Positions 21,246 to 34,338 of a stretch of 64,000 nt of DNA are shown piece after piece; position 1 is the stretch's first letter, and each line of letters starts with the position of its first letter. Position numbers and translations under genes: made by a program. The notes beneath the pieces are model-generated. The model made no database searches and was not told the DNA's origin. It saw nothing but the letters and a program-made list of their open reading frames with translations. The stretch is taken from the NCBI RefSeq assembly GCF_000152985.1, contig NZ_CH672395.1, positions 3,817,823-3,881,822 of the forward strand, given 5' to 3'. The DNA comes from Leeuwenhoekiella blandensis MED217 (GTDB taxonomy: Bacteria; Bacteroidota; Bacteroidia; Flavobacteriales; Flavobacteriaceae).

Positions 21246-23150
21246 TTGAAAAATACCATTGCAGAACGTGTAGCCGACTTTTTAAAACGCTATCCTCCTT
21301 TTCAGTTTTTGGCCGCCGACAGCCTATTGCAAATCGCCGCACAGGTTCAAGTGCTTTATTTTGAAAAAGACAAGGCCATCTTTAAAGAAAAAGATACCAA
21401 CCACAGCATGTTTTATGTGGTTAAAGATGGTGCCGTACGCGTTTTTAGAACGGTAGACAATCAACCCAAGATCGCCGATATCTGTGATGAAGGAGACATT
21501 TTTGGTTTACGCCCGCTTATTACGAAGGAAGATTATGAACTTTCAGCTTCTGCCAATGAAGAGTCTATTATTTACGGGATTCCTATCGATCTGTTTTTAC
21601 CCATCGCATTAGCGCATAAAGAGGTGAGTAATTTTCTTATTGCCAGTTTTGCATCTAATGTAAGCGATCCCTACTCGCTAGAAGAAAGCGGCAAGCTGTT
21701 TACCGAATATTCTGTAGAGCGCAACAGTGAGATTTTTGACCTGCAAAAAGCACGGTATTCTAAAAATATACTCACCTGCTCCCCCGATACGACGATCAAG
21801 GTGGCTGCAAAAAAGATGAGTCACCGCGATGTAGGTTCTATTGTGGTAACGCACGAAGAAAAACCGGTGGGAATCATTACCAATCGGGATCTGCGTGACC
21901 GCATTGCGACAGGTGATTTTGACATTTCAGATTCGGTGGATAAGATTATGAGCAAGCCGGTGAAGTGTTTTCAGAAAGATCCCACGGTGGCGCAAGCCCA
22001 ACTGATTATGCTGAAAAACGAGGTCAATCACTTGTGCATAACCGAAGACGGTACGCCAGACACCAAGCTTCTCGGACTCATCACTGAGCACGATATTGTG
22101 GTTTCGTTTGCAAACAACCCGGTGGTCTTACTGAAAGAAGTAAAACTCGCCAAACGTACTAAACGCCTGCGCGATGTGCGACTTAAGGTTTCGCGATTAC
22201 TCAAAAAGTATTTAGATCAAAACCTTCCGGTATCTCAGATCCTCAACATTCTTAACGAGATCAACTATGCCATCGCCGTACGCGCTTTGGAGCTTTCGCT
22301 CTTAAAAATGGAAACACCGCCGCCGTGTAAATTTGCCTGGCTGGCTTTGGGAAGTCAGGGACGTAAAGAACAATTGTTGTTCACCGATCAAGATAACGCC
22401 ATTGTTTTTGACAACGTGCCTGAAGAAGAATATGAAGCGACCCAAGCCTATTTTATAAAGCTGGCGCGCATCACCACGCGTGCGATGCATAAAGTAGGTT
22501 ATGCCTACTGCCCTGCCGATATGATGGCGAGCAATCACCGCTGGTGCCAGTCGCTTTCTGAATGGAAAAAACAATACCACATCTGGATCACCGATCCTTC
22601 CCCGGAAACCCAGCTGCTCTCTGCGATCTTCTTTGACTACAGTTATGTTTTTGGCGATACACAATTGGTGACCAAACTTTCAGACAGTATTCTAGACACC
22701 TTAGATGCCAACCCGATGTTTTACCGGGTGATGGCCAAAGATGCTATTAGGAGTCCGTCGCCTTTAGGGTTCTTTAGACAGTTTCTTGTAGAAGAAGGTG
22801 GTGACCATAAAGATTTCTTTGATATCAAAGCACGGGCTTTAATGCCGCTTATTGACGCAGCCCGGGTACTGAGTCTTAATCATAAGCTGCGCAACATCAA
22901 CAATACCGCAGGCCGTTTTGAACGCCTTGCCGAACTGGAACAGAACAACAAAGAGATCTATGAGAACTGCTCGTATGCCTTTAAAGCCTTACTGAAATTC
23001 AGAACCAAGCAGGGAATTTTACACGATGACTCCGGAAGGTTTATTGAACTGGCAACTTTAAGCAAAGCAGAAAAGCTGAAGCTGAAGCGTTGCTTCAAAT
23101 CGATTCACGATATTCAAGAATTGCTCACCCTTCGATACAACCTCAAATAG
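21246..23150 (+). CDS. cNMP-binding / CBS / DUF294 nucleotidyltransferase-like protein
   Basis: 634 residues with four parts in order: a cyclic-nucleotide-binding fold (about 15-130), a pair of CBS domains (about 170-295; CSPDTTIKVAAKKMSHRDVG and VGIITNRDLRDRI), a DUF294 putative nucleotidyltransferase domain with GSQGRKEQLLFTDQDNAIVF (about 360-380, resembling the GlnD/GlnE GS-x-R-E-D-x-D site) and a helical C-terminal substrate-binding-like domain (about 480-630). It probably senses adenine nucleotides and transfers or removes a nucleotide on an unknown target. The start is TTG at 21246. The DnaQ-like exonuclease gene follows after 2 bases; this pairing is widespread in bacteria, often near acetate transport genes, which are absent here. 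Confidence 0.88.
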   Translation: MKNTIAERVADFLKRYPPFQFLAADSLLQIAAQVQVLYFEKDKAIFKEKDTNHSMFYVVKDGAVRVFRTVDNQPKIADICDEGDIFGLRPLITKEDYELSASANEESIIYGIPIDLFLPIALAHKEVSNFLIASFASNVSDPYSLEESGKLFTEYSVERNSEIFDLQKARYSKNILTCSPDTTIKVAAKKMSHRDVGSIVVTHEEKPVGIITNRDLRDRIATGDFDISDSVDKIMSKPVKCFQKDPTVAQAQLIMLKNEVNHLCITEDGTPDTKLLGLITEHDIVVSFANNPVVLLKEVKLAKRTKRLRDVRLKVSRLLKKYLDQNLPVSQILNILNEINYAIAVRALELSLLKMETPPPCKFAWLALGSQGRKEQLLFTDQDNAIVFDNVPEEEYEATQAYFIKLARITTRAMHKVGYAYCPADMMASNHRWCQSLSEWKKQYHIWITDPSPETQLLSAIFFDYSYVFGDTQLVTKLSDSILDTLDANPMFYRVMAKDAIRSPSPLGFFRQFLVEEGGDHKDFFDIKARALMPLIDAARVLSLNHKLRNINNTAGRFERLAELEQNNKEIYENCSYAFKALLKFRTKQGILHDDSGRFIELATLSKAEKLKLKRCFKSIHDIQELLTLRYNLK

Positions 23151-23152
23151 CT

Positions 23153-23818
23153 ATGCACATTCCATTTTTCAGTAAAACGCCTGAGCCGCCAGAATTCTAC
23201 AAGCAGTATGCTGCGCAATTCGCAAGCAAAAGCCTTCCCGAACTTGAGGAGGCGCGTTTTGTGGTTTTTGATACTGAAACTACAGGAACCAACGCGCGTG
23301 AAGATCGTATGCTAAGCATCGGCGCTTTAGAACTTAAGGGAAACAAAATAAGCTTGTCAAGCAGTTTTGAACTTTACGTGAAGCAAGAGGTGTTTAATGA
23401 AGAGGCCGTGGCCATTCACGGTATTTTAAGGGAGAACCGCAAGTATAAAAAAGTAAGTGAAGAAGAAGCCGTAAAAGCCTTTTTAGAATTTATAGGAGAC
23501 GCTATTCTGGTTGGGCATCACGTAGGCTTTGACATTGGTATCATCAATTATGCGCTCAAACGCCTGGGTGCTCCTAAACTGAAAAATAAATTTACAGACA
23601 CCGGAGTATTGTACAAACGCACGGTACATCTGGTCAATATCACAGATCCCAATAAGGTCTACACGCTGGATGATCTTTGCGAAGAATTGAATATAGCCAA
23701 GACCGACCGACATAAAGCCATGGGCGATGCGTATATCACTGCGCTGGCATTTCTAAAGGTTATGTCTAAACTAAAGACCAATAAGAAGTTAAAGCTGAAA
23801 CAGATCCTGCTCAATTAA
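23153..23818 (+). CDS. DnaQ-like 3'-5' exonuclease (DEDDh)
   Basis: 221 residues. The DEDDh exonuclease motifs are visible: DTETTGT (ExoI, about 42-48), a conserved H-x-GFD stretch in VGHHVGFDIGIINYAL (ExoII), and HKAMGDAYITALAF (ExoIII with catalytic His and Asp). The start at 23153 lies 2 bases after the upstream stop; a longer start inside the DUF294 gene is not needed. It is not the polymerase III epsilon subunit by length or context, and more resembles the stand-alone PolC-type exonucleases that accompany DUF294 proteins. Its last 8 bases overlap the convergent gene. Confidence 0.88.
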   Translation: MHIPFFSKTPEPPEFYKQYAAQFASKSLPELEEARFVVFDTETTGTNAREDRMLSIGALELKGNKISLSSSFELYVKQEVFNEEAVAIHGILRENRKYKKVSEEEAVKAFLEFIGDAILVGHHVGFDIGIINYALKRLGAPKLKNKFTDTGVLYKRTVHLVNITDPNKVYTLDDLCEELNIAKTDRHKAMGDAYITALAFLKVMSKLKTNKKLKLKQILLN

Positions 23819-24395
23819 AGTTCCCTGCATTCTTCAGCTGATGCGCTAATCGGTCTACATCATCAAAATATTTATAGTCAAACAACTCCGACTCGTTAAG
23901 CATTTTAATGATCTTTTTGGTGTACGGAACTTCAGCATCGGTGATCAATTCCTGCAAGTGCGATTCAAAGGTGCTGTAGAGCAACTGCAATAAGCGTGTC
24001 TTGATCATCGCATCTTTATAATACTGCATAAACTTCTTGCAACAGGATAAAAACAACTGTGGGTGAGAGATCAAACTATCTACAACCGTGTTGAAATAAT
24101 CGAGTACTTCAGGTCCGTGCATTGCTGCCACAAAATGCCGCTCGGTAACGATATCGTTTGCGGGTTTAAACAACCAAAGGTTGCTCTTTATGAATTCGGT
24201 ATAATCTTGCGTACTGCTATAGTACACATCCAGTCCCAGACCGGTACTTATGACAAAAACATCATGTCCGATAGCATTGATCAAGAAACGGTTGAATTGG
24301 CGCTCGGCCTGTGGATACAGTACCGGCTTGCGCTTAAAACCAACGTTTCTAAATCGTACCGAATGTAAGTTCTGTACTACTTTAGGGTGTAGCAT
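23811..24395 (-). CDS. conserved hypothetical protein, 194 aa
   Basis: Soluble protein, no signal peptide, with an N-terminal mixed region (NRFLINAIGHDVFVISTGLG) and a helical C-terminal half (FNTVVDSLISHPQLFLSC... ). I do not recognise a family. Its start overlaps the end of the ankyrin gene by 14 bases on the same strand, so it is probably the third gene of a katA-ankyrin-unknown cluster. A role linked to catalase or oxidative stress is possible from context only. Confidence 0.65.
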   Translation of the reverse strand: MLHPKVVQNLHSVRFRNVGFKRKPVLYPQAERQFNRFLINAIGHDVFVISTGLGLDVYYSSTQDYTEFIKSNLWLFKPANDIVTERHFVAAMHGPEVLDYFNTVVDSLISHPQLFLSCCKKFMQYYKDAMIKTRLLQLLYSTFESHLQELITDAEVPYTKKIIKMLNESELFDYKYFDDVDRLAHQLKNAGNFN

Positions 24396-24861
24396 GCTTT
24401 AGAAGGTTTTCTATTTGATCAAGACCTTGCATACGCGCATGGTCTTCGGCTTTTAGATCTCTTGAATCTCTAAGATCAGGATTGGCACCACGCTCCAGCA
24501 ACAGCTCTACGAGCTCTTTTTGGTTAAAGGTTGCTGCATAGATCAATGCAGTAGCCCCGTTAAAATTCTGCACATTCACATCGGCGCCCTCGTCGATCAA
24601 CAGCTTAGCTACTTCTACATAACCTTTAAAGCACACGCCCATCAAAGCCGTATTGCCCGAAGCATCTTTTGCATTAAGATCTGCCCCGGCAGCAATGATC
24701 GTTTTACTGATTCCCAAATGCCCGTAATAGGTCGCCAGCAATAAAGGCGTAGAACCACGCTGGTCTTTTTCATTAAGCAGTTCGGGGTGCTCTGCCAGTA
24801 AACTGGCTACGGTTTGCTCGTCTTCAGAGCGAATGGCATTAAATAGAGATTCTGATTTCAT
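24382..24861 (-). CDS. ankyrin-repeat protein (catalase-associated)
   Basis: 159 residues built almost wholly of ankyrin repeats: at least three good copies with the GSTPLLLATYYGHLGISKTI, GNTALMGVCFKGYVEVAKLL and GATALIYAATFNQKELVELL helices between about 35 and 135. No signal peptide, so it is cytoplasmic. It lies directly downstream of the catalase gene. In Pseudomonas and Campylobacter, ankyrin proteins encoded next to catalase are needed for full catalase activity, in the latter by haem delivery. The same role is likely here by context. A terminator-like hairpin stands between the two genes, so expression may come from read-through. Confidence 0.88.
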   Translation of the reverse strand: MKSESLFNAIRSEDEQTVASLLAEHPELLNEKDQRGSTPLLLATYYGHLGISKTIIAAGADLNAKDASGNTALMGVCFKGYVEVAKLLIDEGADVNVQNFNGATALIYAATFNQKELVELLLERGANPDLRDSRDLKAEDHARMQGLDQIENLLKHATP

Positions 24862-24893
24862 CTAGTTAAAATACTATATTTTTTCAAAAAAAA

Positions 24894-24924
24894 GCGAGGC
24901 AGCCTAAATTTTAATCTGCCTCGC
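24894..24924 (-). terminator. katA terminator or read-through attenuator
   Basis: 9-bp stem GCGAGGCAG (24894-24902) / CTGCCTCGC (24916-24924) with a 13-base AT loop, followed on the minus strand by a run of eight T. It stands 19 bases after the katA stop and about 30 bases before the ankyrin start. Confidence 0.85.
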
Positions 24925-24943
24925 ATTATCAATTTTCAATTAC

Positions 24944-26437
24944 TTAAACTTCCTCCGGAAGCACGTTAGAGTTGGGATCAACGCCGGTTTTATTAGCTTC
25001 AATAGCATCTTCTACACCTTTTCCATACGCAGGATCTGCCTTGTAAAAATGTGCTAATTGACGCTGTACGATCTCTTCTGAAACACCATCAAGTGCCGTA
25101 GCGATCGTTACAAACATACGCTCTTTCTCATCCTGTGGCATCAAACGAAACAGATCTCCCGGTTGCTTATAAATACCGTAAGTATCGTTCTCTTCATAGC
25201 GTTTTACGTCACCACTGATGCGCATAGGCGGTTCTTCAACTTCTGGAACTTCAACTGCACCGCCTTTGGAGTTCGGTTCATAATAAGCATCAGGATTACC
25301 AAAGTCGTTAGTAAAGAAACGCATCGGCCCGTCTTTGTGATAATGATTCACCATCGCGTTTTTAGGCGCGTTGGCCGGTAATGCTTCATAGTGCGTTCCC
25401 AAACGATAGCGGTGTGCATCGGCATAAGAGAAAATACGCGCTTGCAATACCTTGTCTGGTGAAAAACCAATTCCCGGCACTACATTAGATGGAGAGTAGG
25501 CTGCATTCTCAATATACTGAAAGTAATTCTCCGGATTCTCGTTCAGCTCTAGTTCGCCGACTTCGATCAACGGATAATCATCATGCGACCATACTTTGGT
25601 CAGGTCAAACGGATTGAACGGCAGATTTTCTGCTTCGGCCTCCGGCATCACCTGAATTTTCAATGTCCATTTAGGGTAGTTTCCTTCGTCAATGGCTTTA
25701 TACAGCTCTTCCTGATATTTTTCCCGAGTTTGCCCGATAATGTCCGCAGCTTCGTCGTTAGTATAATTCTTAATTCCTTGTTGGGTTTTGAAGTGAAATT
25801 TCACCCAAAAACGTTCTCCGTCCTTATTCCAAAGACTGAAGGTATGCGATCCATAACCATTCATGTGCATTGGCGTCATTGGGATCCCGCGGTCAGACAT
25901 CAAGATGGTAACCTGATGTAAACTTTCCGGAGAAAGCGACCAGTAGTCCCACATCGCTTCCGGAGAACGCAGGTTGGTTTTAGGATGACGCTTTTGTGTA
26001 TGTATAAAGTCGGGGAATTTATACCCATCACGAATAAAGAACACCGGGGTATTGTTTCCTACCATATCCCAGTTTCCATCTTCGGTATAAAATTTTAAAG
26101 AGAATCCGCGCACGTCACGCTCGGTATCTGCAGCGCCGCGCTCCCCGGCCACGGTAGAAAAACGAGACAACACCGGTGTTTGCTTGCCTACCTCAGAGAA
26201 CAATTTGGCACAGGTATATTTGGTGATATCATGCGTTACCGTAAACGTACCTTTGGCGCCCCAACCGTTGGCATGCACCGTACGCTCAGGAACGCGCTCG
26301 CGATTTTGATGCGCCAATTTTTCAAATAATTTATAGTCCTGCATTACTACAGGTCCGCGCTCACCGGCCGTTTGCGACTTTTGATTGTTTGCAACCGGAG
26401 CTCCGGCTGTGGTGGTCATTTTCTTTTTCTCTGCCAT
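24944..26437 (-). CDS. katA: haem catalase (small-subunit, monofunctional)
   Basis: 497-residue catalase that dismutates hydrogen peroxide. The essential residues are visible: distal His in [12 protein letters not shown] (about residue 56), Asn in [18 protein letters not shown] (about 129), and the haem-ligand Tyr in [17 protein letters not shown] (about 337-340). A charged, Thr/Lys-rich N-terminal tail precedes the domain and there is no signal peptide, so it is cytoplasmic. A perfect -7 box lies 32 bases upstream. The ankyrin gene follows. No peroxide-responsive operator could be recognised by eye. Confidence 0.97.
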
Positions 26438-27755: not shown

Positions 27756-27807
27756 GACTTGAGATTTTAGACTTGAGATAAGAGATAATAAAATAGAGAG
27801 AAAAGAA
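27756..27807. repeat. S element (GACTTGA-type repeat), copy 1
   Basis: Short form of a repeat that recurs at 29656, 31509 and 33268. It contains the words GACTTGAGATTTTAGA and AGAGATAATA and ends AGAGAGAAAAGAA. It begins at the stop codon of the serine hydrolase gene. No coding potential. Confidence 0.7.
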
Positions 27808-27864
27808 ATACGCAGCACGCTGTCCTTTCGAGCGCATACTAAAATTCGGCAGTAGCAGTCTTCA

Positions 27865-27906
27865 GTTTGCGGTTTGCGGTTTGTGGTTTGTGGTTTGTGG
27901 TTTGCA
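27865..27906. repeat. 7-bp tandem repeat, six copies
   Basis: Six consecutive units GTTTGCG, GTTTGCG, GTTTGTG, GTTTGTG, GTTTGTG, GTTTGCA. This is a small minisatellite. The 27756-28077 gap has no gene: it holds the S element, this tract and the structured R element. Confidence 0.8.
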
Positions 27907-27919
27907 GTATTAATTACTC

Positions 27920-28070
27920 ATACCCGAAGGGTTTAGTTCCCTTTTGGTCAGTATAGCAAGCGTATCCCGCTAAAAATTTCTGAAGCCTTGGAAGAAATTT
28001 AGGGATGCGCTTGCGGTTTTTGCGATAGCAAAAAACACCTATCCAAAAGACGTCGTTTCTTTTAATTTAA
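27920..28070. repeat. R element, diverged copy R1 (structured intergenic repeat)
   Basis: Same architecture as R2-R4. Stem I is 13 bp (GCAAGCGTATCCC at 27956-27968 with GGGATGCGCTTGC at 28002-28014). Inside it, AAATTTCT / AGAAATTT close a conserved GAAGCCTTGG loop. Stem II is TTTTTGC-GATA-GCAAAAA (28017-28034). Stem III is AAAAGA / TCTTTT. The stem sequences differ from the other copies but pairing is kept. It ends 8 bases from the stop of the minus-strand gene at 28078 and lacks the strong distal hairpin of the other copies. Confidence 0.75.
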
Positions 28071-28077
28071 TGAATAC

Positions 28078-28542
28078 TTATTCTCTTTTAAAAATCCATC
28101 GTATAGGATCTTTAGTTTTAGGTTCAAAAGAGGTGCAGGTTGCGCCCTGACAAAATCCTAAAATCCACCCCGAAGGTAACGGAATAAAATAGCCAAAACC
28201 TGGTTCTTTATACATTAATTCTCTGTAAGAATTCTGAACCATCCCTATTGAATCTCCTATGCTATAGCCTTCAGGAGTTTCAAATACTGAATCCCGCGTA
28301 CCTCTATAGATCGTATCCCCTTGCTGATCTTGAACTATATTAAAAGTTATACCATCCAAGATTACAGCCGTTGAGGGCTTTAAGGATCCGCTACTCGTCA
28401 TCACGAAACGTGATGCTTTTGCGCCACTTTGAGCAAACTCAGATTCCATCAAAGCATCTTGAGAAACATTATCCTTTGGAGCAGACTCTTGATTACAAGA
28501 GGTTAGTACTAGTAAAACCAAAGCTAAGCTAGTGTTTTTCAT
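28078..28542 (-). CDS. hypothetical lipoprotein, 154 aa
   Basis: Lipobox LVLTSC puts the lipidated Cys at about residue 16. The rest is a small soluble domain I do not recognise, with a run of short strands (GSLKPSTAVILDGITFNIVQ, GDTIYRGTRDSVFETPEG) and an unusual C-x5-C pair near the end (FCQGATCTSF). It starts 9 bases after the stop of the upstream 332-residue gene, so the two form an operon. An R element follows its stop. The gene is part of an island of small minus-strand genes, mostly lipoproteins. Confidence 0.72.
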   Translation of the reverse strand: MKNTSLALVLLVLTSCNQESAPKDNVSQDALMESEFAQSGAKASRFVMTSSGSLKPSTAVILDGITFNIVQDQQGDTIYRGTRDSVFETPEGYSIGDSIGMVQNSYRELMYKEPGFGYFIPLPSGWILGFCQGATCTSFEPKTKDPIRWIFKRE

Positions 28543-28551
28543 AAGTACAGA

Positions 28552-29550
28552 TCAATATCGAATGGCACTAAAAAAAGTATCAACTAGTACTTTTTTTGAA
28601 TCTTGATCACAAATCACAAACACTTCATTAGGCTTCTCTTTATACAGAAACTGTATTGCATAGACCACATCGCCTACAGCTATATTTTTACTAAGGCTCA
28701 CCTGAGCGGTAAGTCGTTGGTTGCGCAACTGCGCTAAGAGGATGCGTTGTTGCGCTTCAAGAGGTAATTCTTCTAATGCTTTTTTTTCGGTGACAAACAC
28801 CTGAATATAATCCTCCGACAACGGACCTAAGGCATAGGTCTCAAAATTCTTCTGCGCCCTACCCTTTATGTAGTTAGGTGAACCATCAGACGAATATCCT
28901 TTTTGCTCAGTAAACTCTTCTTTTTGCATACTGCTGTGATACGTAAGTTCTAAAGTATCAATATTAAAATCTTGATCTACTAATTTTACAACAGCATCCT
29001 TGAAGGCTGGAGTATACCACTCCGGTTTAGGGTCTATATTTAGAATAGGGTCATAGGTATACTCGGGCAAAAGCGTCATACGCACTTTTGCTTTTTCGCC
29101 ATTTGCAGAAGACCTAGAGGACTTCCTCATATTCATACCTAAGCTTTGATTGCTGGTAAAATAGTTACGGTACCTGTTCAAGGCAGCACGATCTTCAATC
29201 ACTTCTTTAAAGGAATAGCCTTTCAGTTTAAAGTCAGCGGCATTAACTATTGGTGCTGTGTCCCAGTTCTGAAAGAGATTCTTAAAATTGGTTTCAAAAT
29301 CACGTATGGAATCCCCTTTTTCATAAATAGTACGTTCGGGTGGTGAAATACGCTCCGGTGTACTGGGAGTTGTTGGATAATATTGAGCCTGATCCTTTCT
29401 CGAGTGTTCTTCATGCTTACAAGAAGCACAACACAATACTGCACAAACCAAAAGCACAACTGCGTGTATTATAGGGCGCACCCTAAAAGACCACCAACCA
29501 AAATTTGACCGGCAACTCGTTAAACTCCCTGATTTGATTAGGTTTAGCAT
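28552..29550 (-). CDS. hypothetical lipoprotein, 332 aa
   Basis: No family recognised. The chosen ATG at 29550 is set by a perfect -7 box (TAAGTTTG, 29563-29556) just upstream. Earlier in-frame ATGs at 29604 and 29685 lie above that box, and the last falls inside repeat DNA. The product has a long signal region with a hydrophobic core and lipobox-like CASC (Cys about 45), a Pro/Thr-rich linker, then a soluble domain of about 260 residues with mixed helices and strands (DTLELTYHSSMQKEEF, SKNIAVGDVVYAIQFLYKEK). It is the first gene of a two-gene unit with the 154-residue lipoprotein. Confidence 0.68.
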   Translation of the reverse strand: MLNLIKSGSLTSCRSNFGWWSFRVRPIIHAVVLLVCAVLCCASCKHEEHSRKDQAQYYPTTPSTPERISPPERTIYEKGDSIRDFETNFKNLFQNWDTAPIVNAADFKLKGYSFKEVIEDRAALNRYRNYFTSNQSLGMNMRKSSRSSANGEKAKVRMTLLPEYTYDPILNIDPKPEWYTPAFKDAVVKLVDQDFNIDTLELTYHSSMQKEEFTEQKGYSSDGSPNYIKGRAQKNFETYALGPLSEDYIQVFVTEKKALEELPLEAQQRILLAQLRNQRLTAQVSLSKNIAVGDVVYAIQFLYKEKPNEVFVICDQDSKKVLVDTFFSAIRY

Positions 29551-29555
29551 CTTTA

Positions 29556-29563
29556 CAAACTTA
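29556..29563 (-). promoter_or_regulatory. -7 box deciding the start of the 332-aa lipoprotein gene
   Basis: Minus-strand TAAGTTTG ends 5 bases before the ATG at 29550, the same near-leaderless layout as dxs and the DUF3109 gene. Confidence 0.5.
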
Positions 29564-29655
29564 ATCAAAAAAGAATGAAGTCGCTTTATTAATCTGATAA
29601 TCATTTCTTTGGCCTCAGATTCTCGATTCAGAATTGCTGAAGGAAGCTTGTGATT

Positions 29656-29749
29656 AAGTCGGCAGTAGCAGGTTACAGTGAGCAAGGGTTGTTTTTAGAC
29701 TTGAGACTTGAGATTTTAGACAAGAGATAATAGAACAGAGAGAAAAGAA
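29656..29749. repeat. S element, copy 2
   Basis: Begins AAGTCGGCAGTAGCAG, then GAGCAAGGGTTG, two GACTTGA units, GATTTTAGACAAGAGATAAT and AGAGAGAAAAGA. Homology to the other copies continues more loosely to about 29860 (CGCGCTGCCTGTCCCAAT, GATTGTATCGCGTG). The 29686-30341 gap contains no convincing gene. Confidence 0.75.
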
Positions 29750-29955
29750 GCGTTTTAAATACGAAATACCTAGCACCCTGTCACGGTTATCGCGCTGCCT
29801 GTCCCAATATATATAGGAAATTGTACTACCGTTGCCGCGCGATTGTATCGCGTGCTCAAGCATAATTTTAAAATTCCCTTTTGTAACTCAATAGTAACGC
29901 CCTTAGAAGGAGGGGTTGCGGATGGATGTTTTCAGAAGAAACCTCAACATCCCTC

Positions 29956-29981
29956 TAAATCTCCCTTCAAAGGGAGATTTA
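29956..29981. repeat. palindromic intergenic hairpin
   Basis: 12-bp arms TAAATCTCCCTT and AAGGGAGATTTA separated by two bases, a near-perfect palindrome without a T-run. It lies inside the repeat-filled gap and is not close to a gene end. Confidence 0.6.
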
Positions 29982-30014
29982 AGATGATAGACAAGAGAAC
30001 AATGACAAATTCCC

Positions 30015-30070
30015 CATACCCGAAGGGTTAAACGAATCTAATATTCCCTCGGTTCAGAATAGCTGTAGGA
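30015..30070. repeat. truncated variant of the R element (5' part)
   Basis: CATACCCGAAGGGTTAAACG, then TTCCCTCGGTTCAGAATAGCTG. The same block opens the long variant at 33449. It is cut off at a GTCGGCAGTAGCAG word, the start of the S-type repeat. Confidence 0.6.
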
Positions 30071-30136
30071 AGCTTTGGAGTAAGTCGGCAGTAGCAGTTT
30101 ACAGTATTCAGTTTTCTGTTTGCGGTATTGAATATT

Positions 30137-30314
30137 CATACCCCAAGGGTTTCCGCTTCTTTTTCTTCAGTATAGCGAGAAGGCTCCGTTAAGAATTTCT
30201 GAAGCCTTGGAAGAAATTTAGGAGCCTTCTTGCGGTTTGCCTGATAAGGCAAAATACCTAAGAAAAAGGCTCTTTTCTTTTGTTACTTTTCTTTGGAGAG
30301 GCAAAGAAAAGTAA
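30137..30314. repeat. R element, copy R2
   Basis: Stem I: GCGAGAAGGCTCC (30175-30187) with GGAGCCTTCTTGC (30221-30233), 13 bp with one G-U pair. Conserved inner loop GAAGCCTTGG. Stem II: TTTGCCT-GATA-AGGCAAA (30236-30253). Distal hairpin: TTACTTTTCTTTG (30283-30295) with CAAAGAAAAGTAA (30302-30314), perfect 13 bp. It ends 27 bases from the stop of the minus-strand FKBP-like gene, so in that transcript the distal hairpin comes first and could act as a terminator. Confidence 0.85.
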
Positions 30315-30341
30315 GGAACAAGAATTGAAAAAAATAATCTT

Positions 30342-31181
30342 CTATTCATCTACTAAAGCTTCTAATTCTGCTAATCTATTTTGCCAGTAGGCCTCATTTT
30401 CAGCATCGGTGTTTGCAGCATAGGTTTGTGCTTCAGCCAAGGCTTCCTCTAGTTTCCCTTGCATTTGTAGGGCATACACCTGTACCCTTTGTAACATGAA
30501 TAAAGTATTGGGGTCTGAAGTTTCGGCTTCCATGTAGTCGGCTACTTGCAGTATTTCGGTGGCTAGAGAATCTTGTACCAGCTCCGTCAGCAGTCCCATA
30601 TAGATCAGGTCAACATCGGTATGAAAAGAACCCTGCGCTGCCTTATCGCGTTCCTCCTCATAAAAACGCAATGCGTCATCCACCTTTTGGGTCTTTATGA
30701 TTTGCACCAGCGTATCGGTGATGTCTTCCTTTTTTGGAGTTACTTTCTTCACCACATAAGGATCATACACTAAGGTAGAGCCTCCCGGGAGTCCGTTGTG
30801 ATCTTCTTTTCCGTAAGCGATAGAATCGGGCAACACGGCCACCACCTCATCGCCTTCAACGAGATAGGAGTTCAATTCGGTAAAGCCTTTGATCATCGTT
30901 TCTTTCTCCTGAATGAATTTAAAAACCGAATCATGCATCGTGCTGGTCGTCCATAATAACGAGTCGAGCTCTTTGATGTACAAATCGGTATAACTCACTA
31001 CCATAGAACCCATTTCTATTTTCTGGCCGTTACCTTTTTTAAGATACAGGTACTTCAACCCGCTGGAAGTGGTAATGGTATCTCCCAGAGCGGTAGCATC
31101 GTCTGCTGTAGTTGGTTTTTCTTTACAGGAAGCAAGAAGTATAAAAATACTGAGTAGTGTAAATCGAAGCGTGTATTTCAT
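30342..31181 (-). CDS. FKBP-like lipoprotein, paralogue 1
   Basis: 279 residues from the ATG at 31181, the start shared with the second copy; a longer reading from 31241 crosses the promoter. Lipobox LLASC (Cys about 19). Residues about 35-140 resemble an FKBP-type peptidyl-prolyl isomerase domain (SSGLKYLYLKKGNGQKIEMG, KGFTELNSYLVEGDEVVAVL, DSIAYGKEDHNGLPGGSTLV), with several usual active-site aromatics missing, so activity is doubtful. A helical, TPR-like C-terminal part (about 155-279) follows. It is nearly identical to the gene at 32223-33068, a recent tandem duplication. Likely a periplasmic chaperone or adaptor. Confidence 0.82.
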   Translation of the reverse strand: MKYTLRFTLLSIFILLASCKEKPTTADDATALGDTITTSSGLKYLYLKKGNGQKIEMGSMVVSYTDLYIKELDSLLWTTSTMHDSVFKFIQEKETMIKGFTELNSYLVEGDEVVAVLPDSIAYGKEDHNGLPGGSTLVYDPYVVKKVTPKKEDITDTLVQIIKTQKVDDALRFYEEERDKAAQGSFHTDVDLIYMGLLTELVQDSLATEILQVADYMEAETSDPNTLFMLQRVQVYALQMQGKLEEALAEAQTYAANTDAENEAYWQNRLAELEALVDE

Positions 31182-31201
31182 GGTTGTTGGTTTAGGTGTT
31201 C

Positions 31202-31228
31202 TAAAGATACTTCTTTTCAGGCACCAAA
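31202..31228 (-). promoter_or_regulatory. promoter of FKBP-like paralogue 1
   Basis: Minus strand: TTTTGG near 31228 (-33-like TTG), 15 bases, then TATCTTTA (one mismatch to TAnnTTTG) at 31209-31202, 21 bases before the ATG. The same arrangement is conserved in front of paralogue 2. Confidence 0.5.
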
Positions 31229-31306
31229 AAAATATAATCAACTGTTTTTCAGTATTTTAATATATAAACTTTATTATACCCATAGCTATAACGATTGATC
31301 CTAAAG

Positions 31307-31432
31307 AACCACCCCTGCCCAGCTACGCGGGCTTTCCCCTCATCCCCAACCCTTCTCCTCCCGAAGCTTCGGGAGAGAAGGGAGTCAGCAACTTGTGCGA
31401 CCTCTCCTAAAGTCGAGGTGACTGAATGTATT
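31307..31432. repeat. E element (GC-rich hairpin repeat), copy 1
   Basis: Starts ACCACCCCTGCCCAGC, contains the hairpin CTCCCGAAGCTTCGGGAG, and runs to ATGTATT, directly adjoining an R-type sequence. It is almost identical to 31850-31975, and a shortened copy lies at 33193-33243. It ends the duplicated block upstream of the FKBP-like gene. Confidence 0.75.
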
Positions 31433-31503
31433 CATACCCGCAGGGTTTTCACTTCTTTTTCTTCAGTATAGCGAGAAGGCTGCGTTAAGAATTTTTGAAG
31501 CCA
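31433..31503. repeat. truncated R element
   Basis: Carries the 5' half only: CATACCCGCAGGGTTTT, TTCTTCAGTATAGCGAGAAG and the GTTAAGAATTTTTGAAGCC inner part. It is then interrupted by an S element at 31509. Stem I lost its partner. Confidence 0.7.
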
Positions 31504-31508
31504 TGAAA

Positions 31509-31700
31509 AAGTCGGCAGTAGCAGGTTACAGTGAGCAAGGGTTGTTTTTAGACTTGAGACTTGAGATTTTAGACAAGAGATTTTAGACAAGAGATAATAG
31601 AACAGAGAGAAAAGACAGTTTAAAATACGAAAGTAGAAATACAAAATATGTAGCAGCTTGTCACCGTTCCCACGCTGCCTGTCCCAATGCATATAGGGAA
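31509..31700. repeat. S element, copy 3
   Basis: GTCGGCAGTAGCAGG, GAGCAAGGGTTG, two GACTTGA units, then GATTTTAGACAAGA twice in tandem, AGAGATAATAG, AGAGAGAAAAGACAGTTT, and a tail shared with copy 4 (ATATGTAGCAGCTTGTCACC). The 31182-32222 gap consists of E, truncated R, S, a hairpin, E and R3; no gene is seen. Confidence 0.75.
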
Positions 31701-31767
31701 TTGTATCGCGTGCAGTTCACATTGTCGTTTAGTACTGATAATATAAGCTATTTACACTATCTCAGCT

Positions 31768-31788
31768 CCCCTCCTTGTTGAGGAGGGG
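31768..31788. repeat. CCCCTCCT hairpin repeat
   Basis: Perfect 8-bp arms CCCCTCCT and AGGAGGGG with loop TGTTG. The same arms with a different loop recur at 33223-33243. This is a GC-rich palindrome of the dispersed type common between flavobacterial genes. Confidence 0.65.
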
Positions 31789-31849
31789 TGGCAGAGCAAG
31801 CACAAAGTGCGCAGCAGCTGACGGGGTGGTGCTTATACAAATTTACTGA

Positions 31850-31975
31850 AACCACCCCTGCCCAGCTACGCGGGCTTTCCCCTCATCCCCAACCCTTCTC
31901 CTCCTGAAGCTTCGGGAGAGAAGGGAGTTAGCAACTTGTGCGACCTCTCCTAAAGTCGAGGTGAATGAATGTATT
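31850..31975. repeat. E element, copy 2
   Basis: Near-identical to 31307-31432; the hairpin arm reads CTCCTGAAG instead of CTCCCGAAG, a G-U change that preserves pairing with CTTCGGGAG. It directly precedes R3, as copy 1 precedes the truncated R. Confidence 0.75.
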
Positions 31976-32153
31976 CATACCCGCAGGGTTTCTGCTTCTT
32001 TTTCTTCAGTATAGCGAGAAGGCTCCGTTAAGAATTTTTGAAGCCTTGGAGAAAATTTAGGAGCCTTCTTGCGGTTTGCCTGATAAGGCAAAATACCTAA
32101 GAAAAAGGGTCTTTTCTTTTGTTACTTTTCTTTGGACAAGCAAAGAAAAGTAA
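31976..32153. repeat. R element, copy R3
   Basis: Stem I: GCGAGAAGGCTCC (32014-32026) with GGAGCCTTCTTGC (32060-32072). Stem II: TTTGCCT-GATA-AGGCAAA (32075-32092). Distal hairpin: TTACTTTTCTTTG (32122-32134) / CAAAGAAAAGTAA (32141-32153), loop GACAAG. It ends 69 bases from the stop of FKBP-like paralogue 2. Confidence 0.85.
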
Positions 32154-32222
32154 GAAACATTGTTAATAAATAAAATTTCTCAATCCAGGAATTCAAAGCC
32201 GATAAAAACATTTAAACCAGCC

Positions 32223-33068
32223 TTACTCCCCTTCAGCTACTAAAGCTTGTAATTCCGCTAATCTATTTTGCCAGTAGGCCTCGTTTTCAGTATCGGTGTT
32301 TGCAGCGTAGGTTTGTGCTTCAGCCAAGGCTTCCTCTAGTTTCCCTTGCATTTGTAGGGCATACACCTGTACCCTTTGTAACATGAATAAAGTATTGGGG
32401 TCTGAAGTTTCGGCTTCCATGTAGTCGGCTACCTGCAGTATTTCGGTGGCTAGAGAATCTTGTGCCAGCTCCGTCAGCAGTCCCATATAGATCAGGTCAA
32501 CATCGGTATGAAAAGAACCCTGCGCCGCCTTATCGCGTTCCTCTTTATAAAAACGCAATGCGTCATCCACCTTTTGGGTTTTTATGATTTGCACCAGCGT
32601 ATCGGTAATATCTTCCTTTTTTGGAGTTACTTTCTTCACCACATAAGGGTCATACACTAAGGTAGAGCCTCCCGGGAGTCCGTTGTGATCTTCTTTTCCA
32701 TATGCGATAGAGTCAGGCAACACGGCCACCACCTCATCGCCTTCTACAAGATAGGAATTCAATTCGGTAAAGCCTTTGATCATCGTTTCTTTCTCCTGAA
32801 TGAATTTAAAAACCGAATCATGCATCGTGCTGGTCGTCCATAGTAATGAGTCGAGCTCTTTGATGTATAAATCGGTGTAACTCACTACCATAGAACCCAT
32901 TTCTATTTTCTGGCCGTTGCCCTTTTTAAGATACAGGTACTTCAACCCGCTGGCAGTGGTAATGGTATCTCCCAAAGCGATAGCATCGTCTGCTGTAATT
33001 GGTTTTTCTTTACAAGAAGCAAAAAGTATAAAAATACTGAGTAGTGTAAATCGAAGTGTATATTTCAT
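32223..33068 (-). CDS. FKBP-like lipoprotein, paralogue 2
   Basis: 281 residues, the same layout as paralogue 1 (lipobox FASC, degenerate FKBP domain, helical C-terminal part). I count roughly ten residue differences over the whole length, among them an E-to-K change in ALRFYKEERDK and the different C-terminus EALVDE versus QALVAEGE. Promoter, flanking R element and part of the E element are duplicated with it. The two copies are in the same orientation, 1.89 kb apart. Recent duplication or gene conversion is the simplest reading. Confidence 0.82.
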   Translation of the reverse strand: MKYTLRFTLLSIFILFASCKEKPITADDAIALGDTITTASGLKYLYLKKGNGQKIEMGSMVVSYTDLYIKELDSLLWTTSTMHDSVFKFIQEKETMIKGFTELNSYLVEGDEVVAVLPDSIAYGKEDHNGLPGGSTLVYDPYVVKKVTPKKEDITDTLVQIIKTQKVDDALRFYKEERDKAAQGSFHTDVDLIYMGLLTELAQDSLATEILQVADYMEAETSDPNTLFMLQRVQVYALQMQGKLEEALAEAQTYAANTDTENEAYWQNRLAELQALVAEGE

Positions 33069-33088
33069 GGTTGTTGGTTTAGGTGTTC

Positions 33089-33114
33089 TAAAGATACTTC
33101 TTTTCAGGCACCAA
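33089..33114 (-). promoter_or_regulatory. promoter of FKBP-like paralogue 2
   Basis: TATCTTTA at 33096-33089 and a TTG at 33114-33112 on the minus strand, duplicating the arrangement in front of paralogue 1. Confidence 0.5.
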
Positions 33115-33192
33115 CAAAATATAATTCACTGTTTTTCAGTATTTTAAATCAAAATCTTTATTGTACCCATAGCTATAACGATTGAGACTAAA

Positions 33193-33243
33193 GAACCACC
33201 CCTGCCCAGCTACGCGGGCTTTCCCCTCCTTCAAAAGGAGGGG
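33193..33243. repeat. E element remnant with CCCCTCCT hairpin
   Basis: ACCACCCCTGCCCAGC and GCGGGCTTTCCCCT match the first part of the E copies; it is then replaced by a hairpin, CCCCTCCT (33223-33230) / AGGAGGGG (33236-33243). Confidence 0.65.
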
Positions 33244-33267
33244 AGCTTTGGTGAGAAAAGTTTTTTG

Positions 33268-33440
33268 AAGTCGGCAGTAGCAGTTTACAGTGAGCAAGGG
33301 TTGTTTTTAGACTTGAGACTTGAGACTTGAGATTTTAGACAAGAGATAATAGAACAGAGAGAAAAGACAGTTTAAAATACGAAAGTAGAAATACAAAATA
33401 TGTAGCAGCTTGTCACCGTTCCCGCGCGATTGTATCGCGT
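33268..33440. repeat. S element, copy 4
   Basis: AAGTCGGCAGTAGCAG, GAGCAAGGGTTG, three GACTTGA units (two in copies 2 and 3), GATTTTAGACAAGAGATAAT, AGAGAGAAAAGACAGTTT and the ATATGTAGCAGCTTGTCACC tail. Unit number differs between copies, as in slipped-strand tandem repeats. Confidence 0.75.
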
Positions 33441-33448
33441 GTTCCTGC

Positions 33449-33694
33449 ATAACCCGAAGGGTTAAACGAAATCATAATTCCCTCGGTTCAGAATAGCTGC
33501 AAGGGCAGAGCGTTAAGGAAAGGTCTAGTAGACCTTTTTAGCGAATGAGCCAGGTGGCGCGTTGGCTTTGGTATGGATTACTTTACTTCAAGTAAGAACT
33601 ACTCTTAGAAAAACGTAAGTAGCGACGCGGAGCTGACAAGGCGGTTTTTGCCTGATAAGGCAAGAAATTCCTAAGAAAAAGGGTCTTTTCTTTT
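33449..33694. repeat. R element, long variant
   Basis: Opens like the piece at 30015 (CCCGAAGGGTTAAACG, GGTTCAGAATAGCTG) and ends like R2-R4 (GCGGTTTTTGCCTGATAAGG, CCTAAGAAAAAGGGTC at 33669-33684). The Stem I region is replaced by about 130 bases holding another hairpin, AAAGGTC-TAGTA-GACCTTT (around 33515-33535). It suggests that R elements exchange their central part. Confidence 0.6.
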
Positions 33695-33869
33695 CTGCAT
33701 CCGACGACCGCAGGGAGAGGAATGCACCTGTTGTGCTATGTAATAATATTAGTCGAATTAGTAATAGCAAATCGACGCTAGGAGATTCACGAGCTCCCGT
33801 GAACTTAAAATCACGCGAGTAAAGAAAATGAACAGAACATCAATTGAAAAGATAAACTTCAATTTATAC

Positions 33870-34065
33870 CCCTGTTCTTTTGCCTTGATGCCAAAGAACC
33901 AAAAAATCAAGGCTTATTTTTAGATCCTTGAAAACTACGCAAACGCCTTTGCCTGCGGATAGCAAACCGCTGCGCTAGGCTATCCTCCACTGCCCACCGC
34001 TGCGGCGCCTGCTTGTTTTACTACAGATCTAAAAAGTAGGCCGGTGCTGATGTCAAAATAGAATT
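33870..34065. repeat. complex palindromic repeat element
   Basis: Contains nested inverted repeats: CCTTGAT (33883-33889) / ATCAAGG (33906-33912); TTTTTAGATC (33917-33926) / GATCTAAAAA (34026-34035), enclosing about 100 bases; and inside these GGATAGC / GCTATCC around a GC-rich core. The core is more GC-rich than its surroundings. No frame of convincing length. The 33069-34338 gap is otherwise made of E, S and R repeats. Confidence 0.65.
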
Positions 34066-34099
34066 TAGATTTTAGAAGTGAGACAAAAAACAAATTACC

Positions 34100-34280
34100 C
34101 ATACCCGCAGGGTTTCTGCTTCTTTTTCTTCAGTATAGTAAGAAGGCTCCGTTAAGAATTTCTGAAGCCTTGGAAGAAATTTAGGAGCCTTCTTGCGGTT
34201 TTCGTCCATAAGGCGAAAAATACCTAAGAAAAAGGGTCTTTTCTTTTGTTACTTTTCTTTGGACAAGCAAAGAAAAGTAA
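34100..34280. repeat. R element, copy R4
   Basis: Stem I: GTAAGAAGGCTCC (34138-34150) with GGAGCCTTCTTGC (34184-34196); the C-to-T change at position 2 gives a U-G pair. Stem II differs: TTTTCG (34199-34204) / CGAAAA (34214-34219) with an inner CC/GG and ATAA loop. Distal hairpin TTACTTTTCTTTG (34249-34261) / CAAAGAAAAGTAA (34268-34280). It ends 59 bases from the stop of the minus-strand lipoprotein gene at 34339. Confidence 0.85.
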
Positions 34281-34338
34281 GGGACATGATTAATTAATAA
34301 AATTACTCAATCCGCAACGCTACCCTATTCTCCAATCC

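Follow-up and report, generated by a model that had tools for sequence, protein, structure and literature searches.

R, a dispersed intergenic repeat with a covarying three-way junction in Leeuwenhoekiella blandensis and other Flavobacteriaceae

A stretch of 64,000 nucleotides from Leeuwenhoekiella blandensis MED217 (contig NZ_CH672395.1, positions 3,817,823 to 3,881,822; hereafter the window) carries, in a crowded and repeat-rich region, several copies of an intergenic unit of about 170-200 nt with a branched fold, which we call R (Table 1). An earlier examination of the letters without database searches (the sequence-only reading) had listed four full copies, one long variant and two truncated pieces. 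All four full copies were recovered by a covariance model (CM) at 109-131 bits, scores which are not independent since the model was built partly from the window copies or near-identical ones. R2 and R3, which had been taken as separate copies, are both present but do not count as independent, because they belong to a single segmental duplication (300 nt at 97% and 188 nt at 95%) that includes the neighbouring gene; the window therefore holds three independent full copies. A distal hairpin was found in three of the four, as had been reported. Among the truncated pieces, that at 31433 is indeed a shortened R copy, which ends after the apical loop where a different repeat (GTCGGCAGTAGCAG...) starts, whereas that at 30015 is a truncated copy of the sibling type at 33449, which gave no significant CM match alone.

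Table 1. R copies and related units in the window, with loci elsewhere that carry related or composite forms.
Feature	Position	Strand	Description
R1, type B	27920..28054	+	5′ hairpin ACCC-GAA-GGGT, three-way junction, without distal hairpin; CM match 27936-28054, 109 bits
R2, type A	30137..30316	+	5′ hairpin, three-way junction, distal hairpin within 30283-30314; CM match 30155-30273, 126 bits
R3, type A	31976..32159	+	segmental-duplication copy of R2, 95% to R2; CM match 31994-32112, 125 bits
R4, type A, complete	34100..34283	+	CM match 34118-34239, 131 bits
Truncated type A copy	31433..31508	+	CM 30 bits, E 1e-4; blastn 89% over query 1-76
Sibling type (long variant)	33449..33715	+	blastn 92% over 46 nt of the 3′ half; CM 17 bits, E 0.13
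Truncated sibling-type copy	30015..30079	+	reduced to the 5′ hairpin and the 5′ strand of the outer stem; 90% to 33452-33499 over 48 nt
Relatives of the sibling family	L016-L018, L025-L030; L203:2050-2168, L194:1366-1490, L263:2432-2544		
Loci with nested palindromes	L008-L015, L034, L044, L110, L140, L149, L420, L437		

On the folding strand, R runs from a small 5′ hairpin, present in most of the lineages read, through an outer stem, a GTAT/ATAC extension, Stem I, GG, Stem II and a pyrimidine-rich tail to the distal hairpin, and the outer stem, Stem I and Stem II together form a three-way junction. Stem I is 13 bp long and is capped by an invariant apical hairpin with the loop GAAGCCTTGG / GAAGCCTTGGA (the conserved loop is also written GAAGCCUUGG). 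The helix that the sequence-only reading had called Stem III does exist, but it is the outer stem, which closes the three-way junction (a junction that the list of that reading lacked); in it CTTTTTCTT pairs with AAGAAAAAG and, in R1, CTTTTGG with CCAAAAG. Between genera the outer stem was found to be replaced wholesale (CTTTTTCTT/AAGAAAAAG, CTTTTGG/CCAAAAG, CCAATCGG/CGATTGG, GTTGAAATG/CATTTCAAC), and the 4-bp extension reads GTAT/ATAC, GCAT/ATGC, GTGT/ACAC or GAAT/ATTC. Predicted folds of R2 (as RNA and as DNA) and of R1 (as RNA) were better than 200 of 200 shuffled sequences, with z values of -5.0 to -6.6. A possible kissing contact, in which CUUG of one conserved loop would pair with CAAG of the other, was considered by eye and rejected, because some genera have AAAG or CCAG in the second loop.

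Covariation, both between genera and inside one genome, tree-aware nulls and an asymmetry between the strands all support the earlier proposal, made for the window copies, that selection acts on structure rather than on sequence. Already between R1 and R2 six pairs of Stem I are changed on both sides (by eye), as had been noted. We assembled a set of 79 copies from 137 sites of the window genome and other genomes: two off-type loci (L042, L049) were dropped, 85 copies were left after removal of near-duplicates, and six more (L080, L097, L112, L119 of type B, L125, and L132 on the minus strand) were excluded as interrupted, chimeric or truncated, with some ends trimmed; exclusion of the two chimeras slightly favours pairing in this set. 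Under a 42-pair structure, 93.9% of the cells were paired and 30 of the 42 pairs had changed on both sides. Double changes were seen in 454 cells, compared with 109 after shuffling and 63-142 with partners slid; the covariation score was 0.413, as opposed to 0.153 (shuffled) and 0.064-0.118 (slid). RNAalifold recovered the junction from an unfitted MAFFT alignment of the same copies, in which 25 of 38 pairs had changed on both sides. For 57 matches found by the model, mostly one or few per genus, the corresponding values were 38 of 42 pairs and a score of 0.781 against 0.192, from an alignment that was fitted to the CM and is thus biased towards the structure. Covariation was also rich inside one genome, as 27 of 42 pairs covaried among the best-scoring 60 of the 73 copies of Kordia aestuariivivens, with 51 different Stem I arm pairs and 94.9% of cells paired.

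Because shuffles ignore relatedness, we wrote a tree-aware test, an R-scape-like script of our own (not R-scape) that re-places substitutions along each FastTree branch (E<0.05; two seeds in one run). In alignment A3, the 79-copy set, 4-7 of the 42 structure pairs were significant and none of 7,218 other pairs; in alignment A4, 21-24 of 42 and none of 7,339. In alignment A5, made of the 60 K. aestuariivivens copies, 2-6 of 42 structure pairs reached significance together with 3-5 of 8,214 other pairs, mostly in neighbouring columns. Covariation in more copies had been set beforehand as a test, and it grew stronger as more diverse copies were added.

G-U and A-C combinations were counted in the stems of the unfitted alignment, where G-U outnumbered A-C by 98:14 (72:4 in Stem I and 22:5 in the outer stem; the apical hairpin, counted apart, gave 40:2). 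Fitted alignments gave 109:15 and 140:24, in the same direction. This excess of G-U over A-C indicates that one strand folds, as would fit either RNA or strand-specific single-stranded DNA. The sequence-only reading had left the choice between these two open; the evidence now leans towards RNA but does not settle the matter.

Arms and core were compared within Kordia jejudonensis. The 45 copies found there ranged from 66 to 113 bits, with an insertion in 11 of the 12 that scored lowest; among the 150 first-look candidates scored, decayed copies did not form a gradual tail above the E threshold of 0.01. Of the 45, the script did not locate 3, and 19 either were interrupted or did not pass its tail test; in the remaining 23, all uninterrupted, the nine folded or conserved segments showed 53 changes in 3,772 sites, that is 1.4%, whereas divergence reached 16.4% in the 5′ arm, 18.4% in the 3′ arm and 38% in the Stem II loop, which lies inside the core. 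Sixteen copies chosen by an exact motif agreed with this result. The free variation of the Stem II loop speaks against the core having been copied recently as a whole. In 23 K. aestuariivivens copies aligned with their flanks, the arms were hardly alignable by eye. The difference between core and arms sets R apart from a plain miniature inverted-repeat transposable element (MITE), of which a passive, neutrally evolving interior is expected.

R-bearing units also show the marks of mobility. Pairs of inverted ends, AACGTGAGTTCGAYRTAA, were found around R in five of six genomes searched (two Kordia, an uncultured Dokdonia, Mesonia and Haloflavibacter), where the elements are bounded by TAACGTGAGTTCGAYRTAA and its reverse complement; the sixth, Dokdonia pacifica, gave one end match, the same as its control. 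Candidate end pairs lie 157-443 bp apart, which leaves no room for a transposase gene, and TA-rich target duplications of 5-7 nt accompanied 13 of 43 of them, where about 1.3 were expected, the 43 including second-choice ends of the same element. Inverted ends with target duplications point to a non-autonomous mobile element. The same ends enclose a different interior at L146 and L156. By eye, no end pair at a transposon-like distance was seen among the matches listed for the six genomes, and the empty site of a relative (G021) was too diverged to yield a target duplication.

The position of R relative to genes was analysed in three samples. The gene 5′ of R lay on the same strand, rather than on the opposite one, by 24:6 in K. 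jejudonensis (best-scoring 30 of 45 copies), by 27:13 in K. aestuariivivens (best-scoring 40 of 73) and by 36:13 at 49 sites in other genomes of the family, the last sample being drawn from genomes with 1-8 copies or as a few copies from larger sets (52 sites, 3 of them at an edge, with 5 secondary matches omitted). Pooled, the ratio was 87:32 (p 4.7e-7, copies taken as independent). A location behind a co-oriented gene makes a role in the 3′ untranslated region (3′ UTR) or between cistrons the most likely one. No fixed place before a same-strand downstream gene was found, as a riboswitch or another 5′ cis-regulatory leader would have.

The subfamily with the outer stem GTTGAAATG or one close to it lies in sense orientation between co-oriented genes at 13 of 14 sites (hand count; the exception is L232). 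By their NCBIfam names, these sites lie between PaaA and PaaB, PaaD and a PaaG-like gene, kynureninase and an FAD monooxygenase, and a TrpF-like gene and TrpB, as well as before the arsenosugar gene ArsM; PaaA, PaaB, PaaD and the PaaG-like protein were named in L201 and L205. The PaaA/PaaB position is shared by two genera in which the flanks have diverged and Stem II has changed in a compensating way (by eye). In four low-copy genomes (G068, G114, G119 and G164; L220-L223, with gene names by eye and 24 candidates scored in each), all copies found lie in the phenylacetate operon, in different gaps per genus.

Taken together, and judged from sequence, we give roughly even chances to the reading that R is a non-autonomous mobile element with a structured-RNA cargo, kept as a 3′-UTR or intercistronic element. 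R would be transcribed within the mRNA of the upstream gene, as its 3′ UTR or as an intercistronic part, and its fold and two conserved loops would be recognised by a putative RNA-binding factor or RNase. Such recognition may set the 3′ end, the decay or the read-through of the upstream mRNA, as REP/BIME sequences (repetitive extragenic palindromes and bacterial interspersed mosaic elements) can do in enterobacteria. Mobility would spread R and copies that fit a transcript would be retained, with the outcome that some low-copy genomes hold copies inside operons and bursts occur elsewhere (Kordia, Leeuwenhoekiella). The copies in Kordia and in the low-copy genomes are best read as kept in the form of structured RNA.

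Several observations weigh against this. The strand asymmetry is weak in Stem II (4:2) and reversed in the 4-bp extension (0:3). The copies in alignment A5 and in the Kordia position counts are the best-scoring ones, which favours well-paired copies, and the gene calls came from a simple rule for open reading frames. Downstream genes show no orientation bias in Kordia (same strand to opposite strand 16:14 in K. jejudonensis and 23:16 in K. aestuariivivens) and merely lean to the same strand in the other genomes of the family (31:18). The upstream bias is absent from the named Leeuwenhoekiella records (16:16) and from the window genome (5:9), both counted by hand from a set whose 88 sites together gave 53:35, and three of the four window copies are antisense to both neighbours. 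Moreover, the orientation bias could stem from insertion rather than function, and the copies are not phylogenetically independent. Clear inverted ends were not seen in the window's own copies, and no mobilising enzyme was found by Y1 searches in carriers or among the end pairs in the matches listed. Finally, R stands at the paaA/paaB gap in 2 of 30 paaA loci scanned (59 genomes have paaA), which suggests that R was inserted repeatedly or travelled with the operon, and not that it is an ancestral regulator; on the same count, a function tied to the phenylacetate operon was rejected. The 19 other paaA/paaB gaps measured are 1-97 bp long and 9 were not measurable by the script; G119, a genome outside those 30, has R behind paaA. 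The window copies, mostly antisense to their neighbours in their crowded surroundings, probably belong to the least functional members of the family.

The fold might instead act as single-stranded DNA, the substrate of an HUH (histidine-hydrophobe-histidine) transposase of the Y1 family, of the IS200/IS605 kind or of the REP-associated tyrosine transposase (RAYT) kind, with structure kept for mobility only. We regard this as unlikely. The strand asymmetry is as expected for such a substrate, genome G120 has hairpin-flanked units without visible inverted ends, and Y1 family matches above the cut-off were obtained in 7 of 10 other carrier genomes. However, no Y1 match was detected in the remaining three or in the window genome, and the R motif was absent from the four Y1 loci scanned (L135-L138, up to about 1.5 kb on either side), two of which hold RAYT-like genes that, with their flanks read, are adjoined by short palindromes of their own (L137, L138). 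RAYT/IS200 was accordingly rejected as a general partner. Inverted ends with target duplications, as found around R units, are not the mode of IS200/IS605, and conserved cores beside diverged arms are not what one would expect if selection acted on mobility alone.

R could also be a selfish RNA, a bacterial analogue of a short interspersed nuclear element whose transcript is needed in trans or as a template for its own spread through RNA-mediated copying or homing, any position effects on the host being secondary. In favour of this idea, the same core occurs in different outer frames with a sharp border by eye: the ends are TAACGTGAGTTCGA in Kordia, Dokdonia and others, ATCCCGAATTTTG in Saprospiraceae, and hairpins elsewhere. 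Type A and type B cores lie between similar flanks in two species (L108, L127), and L080 and L097 are mosaics with a type A 5′ part and a type B 3′ part. A freshly copied core would not be expected to have Stem II loops that vary freely beside stems that do not, nor would the copies of one genome carry different paired stems, and we consider this explanation improbable too.

An ordinary MITE burst, with a passive interior and with conservation due to youth only, would account for the inverted ends, the target duplications, a length too short for a transposase gene and the variable copy number; it is very unlikely given the contrast of core and arms within the same copies, the free Stem II loop, and covariation both between and within genomes. 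Least probable of all, and disfavoured, is quasi-palindrome correction without selection, in which template switching between hairpin arms during replication could yield double changes in stems devoid of function, since this strand-symmetric process predicts equal numbers of G-U and A-C, where 98:14 was counted, leaves the invariant unpaired loops unexplained, and does not account for the outer stem, in which 12 of 13 pairs covary although about 100 nt separate its two strands.

R apparently is an undescribed RNA-like element. Rfam gave no match on it, either with the window at the gathering threshold or with positions 27800-34320 and six diverse loci at relaxed thresholds, and searches of the open-access literature listed no description of it. 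The nearest named item is the Flavo-1 RNA (RF01705), like R a predicted structured RNA dispersed in Flavobacteriaceae; with 76 model positions, its matches adjoin R but never lie on it in the six loci scanned, and there is none in the window. Two of them (L200:331-414 and L198:1775-1922) lie near R on the opposite strand. According to a transcriptome study, Flavo-1 hits lie indistinctly sense or antisense of transcribed regions, with many outside them (PMC9723704). Flavo-1 looks like another interspersed repeat. REP/BIME sequences with RAYT are, like R, short intergenic palindromic repeats with strand-specific folds, and are frequent in 3′ UTRs or between cistrons, but R forms a three-way junction of 170-200 nt whose loops are invariant, and some of its carriers gave no Y1 match. 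Correia, RUP, BOX and ERIC are small, non-coding, interspersed MITE-like repeats, BOX being modular as R is, and R shares inverted ends and target duplications with this class in several genera; R differs in having a deeply covarying, RNA-like core that is conserved beyond the arms. Integron attC sites also conserve structure over sequence, fold on a single strand and may stand in rows of one orientation. However, attC consists of one imperfect hairpin that carries AAC/GTT boxes, whereas R is a three-way junction in mixed orientation to genes.

The distribution of R was examined with an exact 22-nt core pattern, with blastn and with the covariance model. The core pattern occurred in 104 stretches (115 sites) of the genome contig collection searched, mostly in Leeuwenhoekiella and Kordia, and also in Dokdonia, Mesonia, Haloflavibacter, Salegentibacter, Zunongwangia, Ulvibacterium, Zeaxanthinibacter, Hanstruepera and a Flavobacterium; it was further met in a few Saprospiraceae, Chitinophagales and other metagenome-assembled genomes (MAGs). 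The CM found R in at least 36 of 149 sampled Flavobacteriaceae genomes (24 candidates scored per genome) and in at least 5 of 395 genomes across the phylum, a weak lower bound with 9 candidates scored each. Single genomes held 73 copies (K. aestuariivivens), 45 (K. jejudonensis), 30 (Leeuwenhoekiella parthenopeia), 24 (L. marinoflava), 24 (L. palythoae) and 22 (a Mesonia sp.), counts for which 150 of several thousand first-look candidates were scored, so that weak or decayed copies may have been missed. In the window genome, at least 31 blastn matches to R2 were obtained (40 of 62 candidates scored), and 4 of 13 genomes of its genus were without a match by blastn. Viral contigs gave no exact match of the 22-nt core, and plasmids and phages no match to R2 by distant blastn. 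Tandem R elements spaced by 361-391 bp were seen at L219 (G076:C5, about 23057-26043). R elements like those of Leeuwenhoekiella also occur in a MAG labelled Hyphomicrobiales (L072, L126; PAPH01000006), on a contig that is probably misbinned.

Related and composite forms were also recorded. The sibling family, found in short and long forms in several genera, has R's outer stem, AGAATAG, Stem II and tail around another inner domain, AGCTCCGA...CGCGGAG...; the window's long variant additionally retains the 5′ hairpin, and its differing inner domain measures about 150 nt. Small palindromic repeats (TGTGCC...GGCACA; GTAGCCTGTCCTGAGCGATAGTCGAAGGA; GCATCCGACGACCGCAGGGAGAGGAATGCA; GATTCATGAAT...) are nested at recurrent points of R, often with the fold still possible, and are a second layer of hairpin-inserting elements. 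The copies L080 and L097 of L. marinoflava, in which the outer stem is broken, are recombinants between types A and B. In the window, a pair of duplicated lipoprotein-like genes (30342-31241 and 32223-33068; FKBP-like by eye) was copied along with R2/R3; the second had no NCBIfam match at 1e-10, and the neighbouring lipoprotein had no relative among the viral contigs searched. Palindromes of the form CGCGCGATTGTATCGCGTG at 29828-29865 and 33415-33452 resemble those beside the RAYT-like genes of L137 and L138; the window genome has no Y1 match.

With at least 36 carriers among the 149 genomes sampled, up to 73 copies per genome and rich covariation inside one genome, R unites mobility and constraint after insertion in one object, so that, for bacterial intergenic repeats, the question of junk versus adoption for mRNA control can be put to the test one copy at a time. 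Evidence that dispersed copies of an interspersed structured repeat are individually constrained is, to our knowledge, uncommon. Annotation and transcriptome work on marine flavobacteria will encounter R without a name. It is conceivable, though doubtful on the sequence data at hand, that the dispersed copies, each under purifying selection, form a mobile post-transcriptional regulon, that is, a shared 3′-UTR platform of one putative RNA-binding factor. If so, a transposon would have wired tens of flavobacterial transcripts to a common control of mRNA ends or decay, including, in some genera, those of the phenylacetate, kynurenine, tryptophan and arsenosugar operons.

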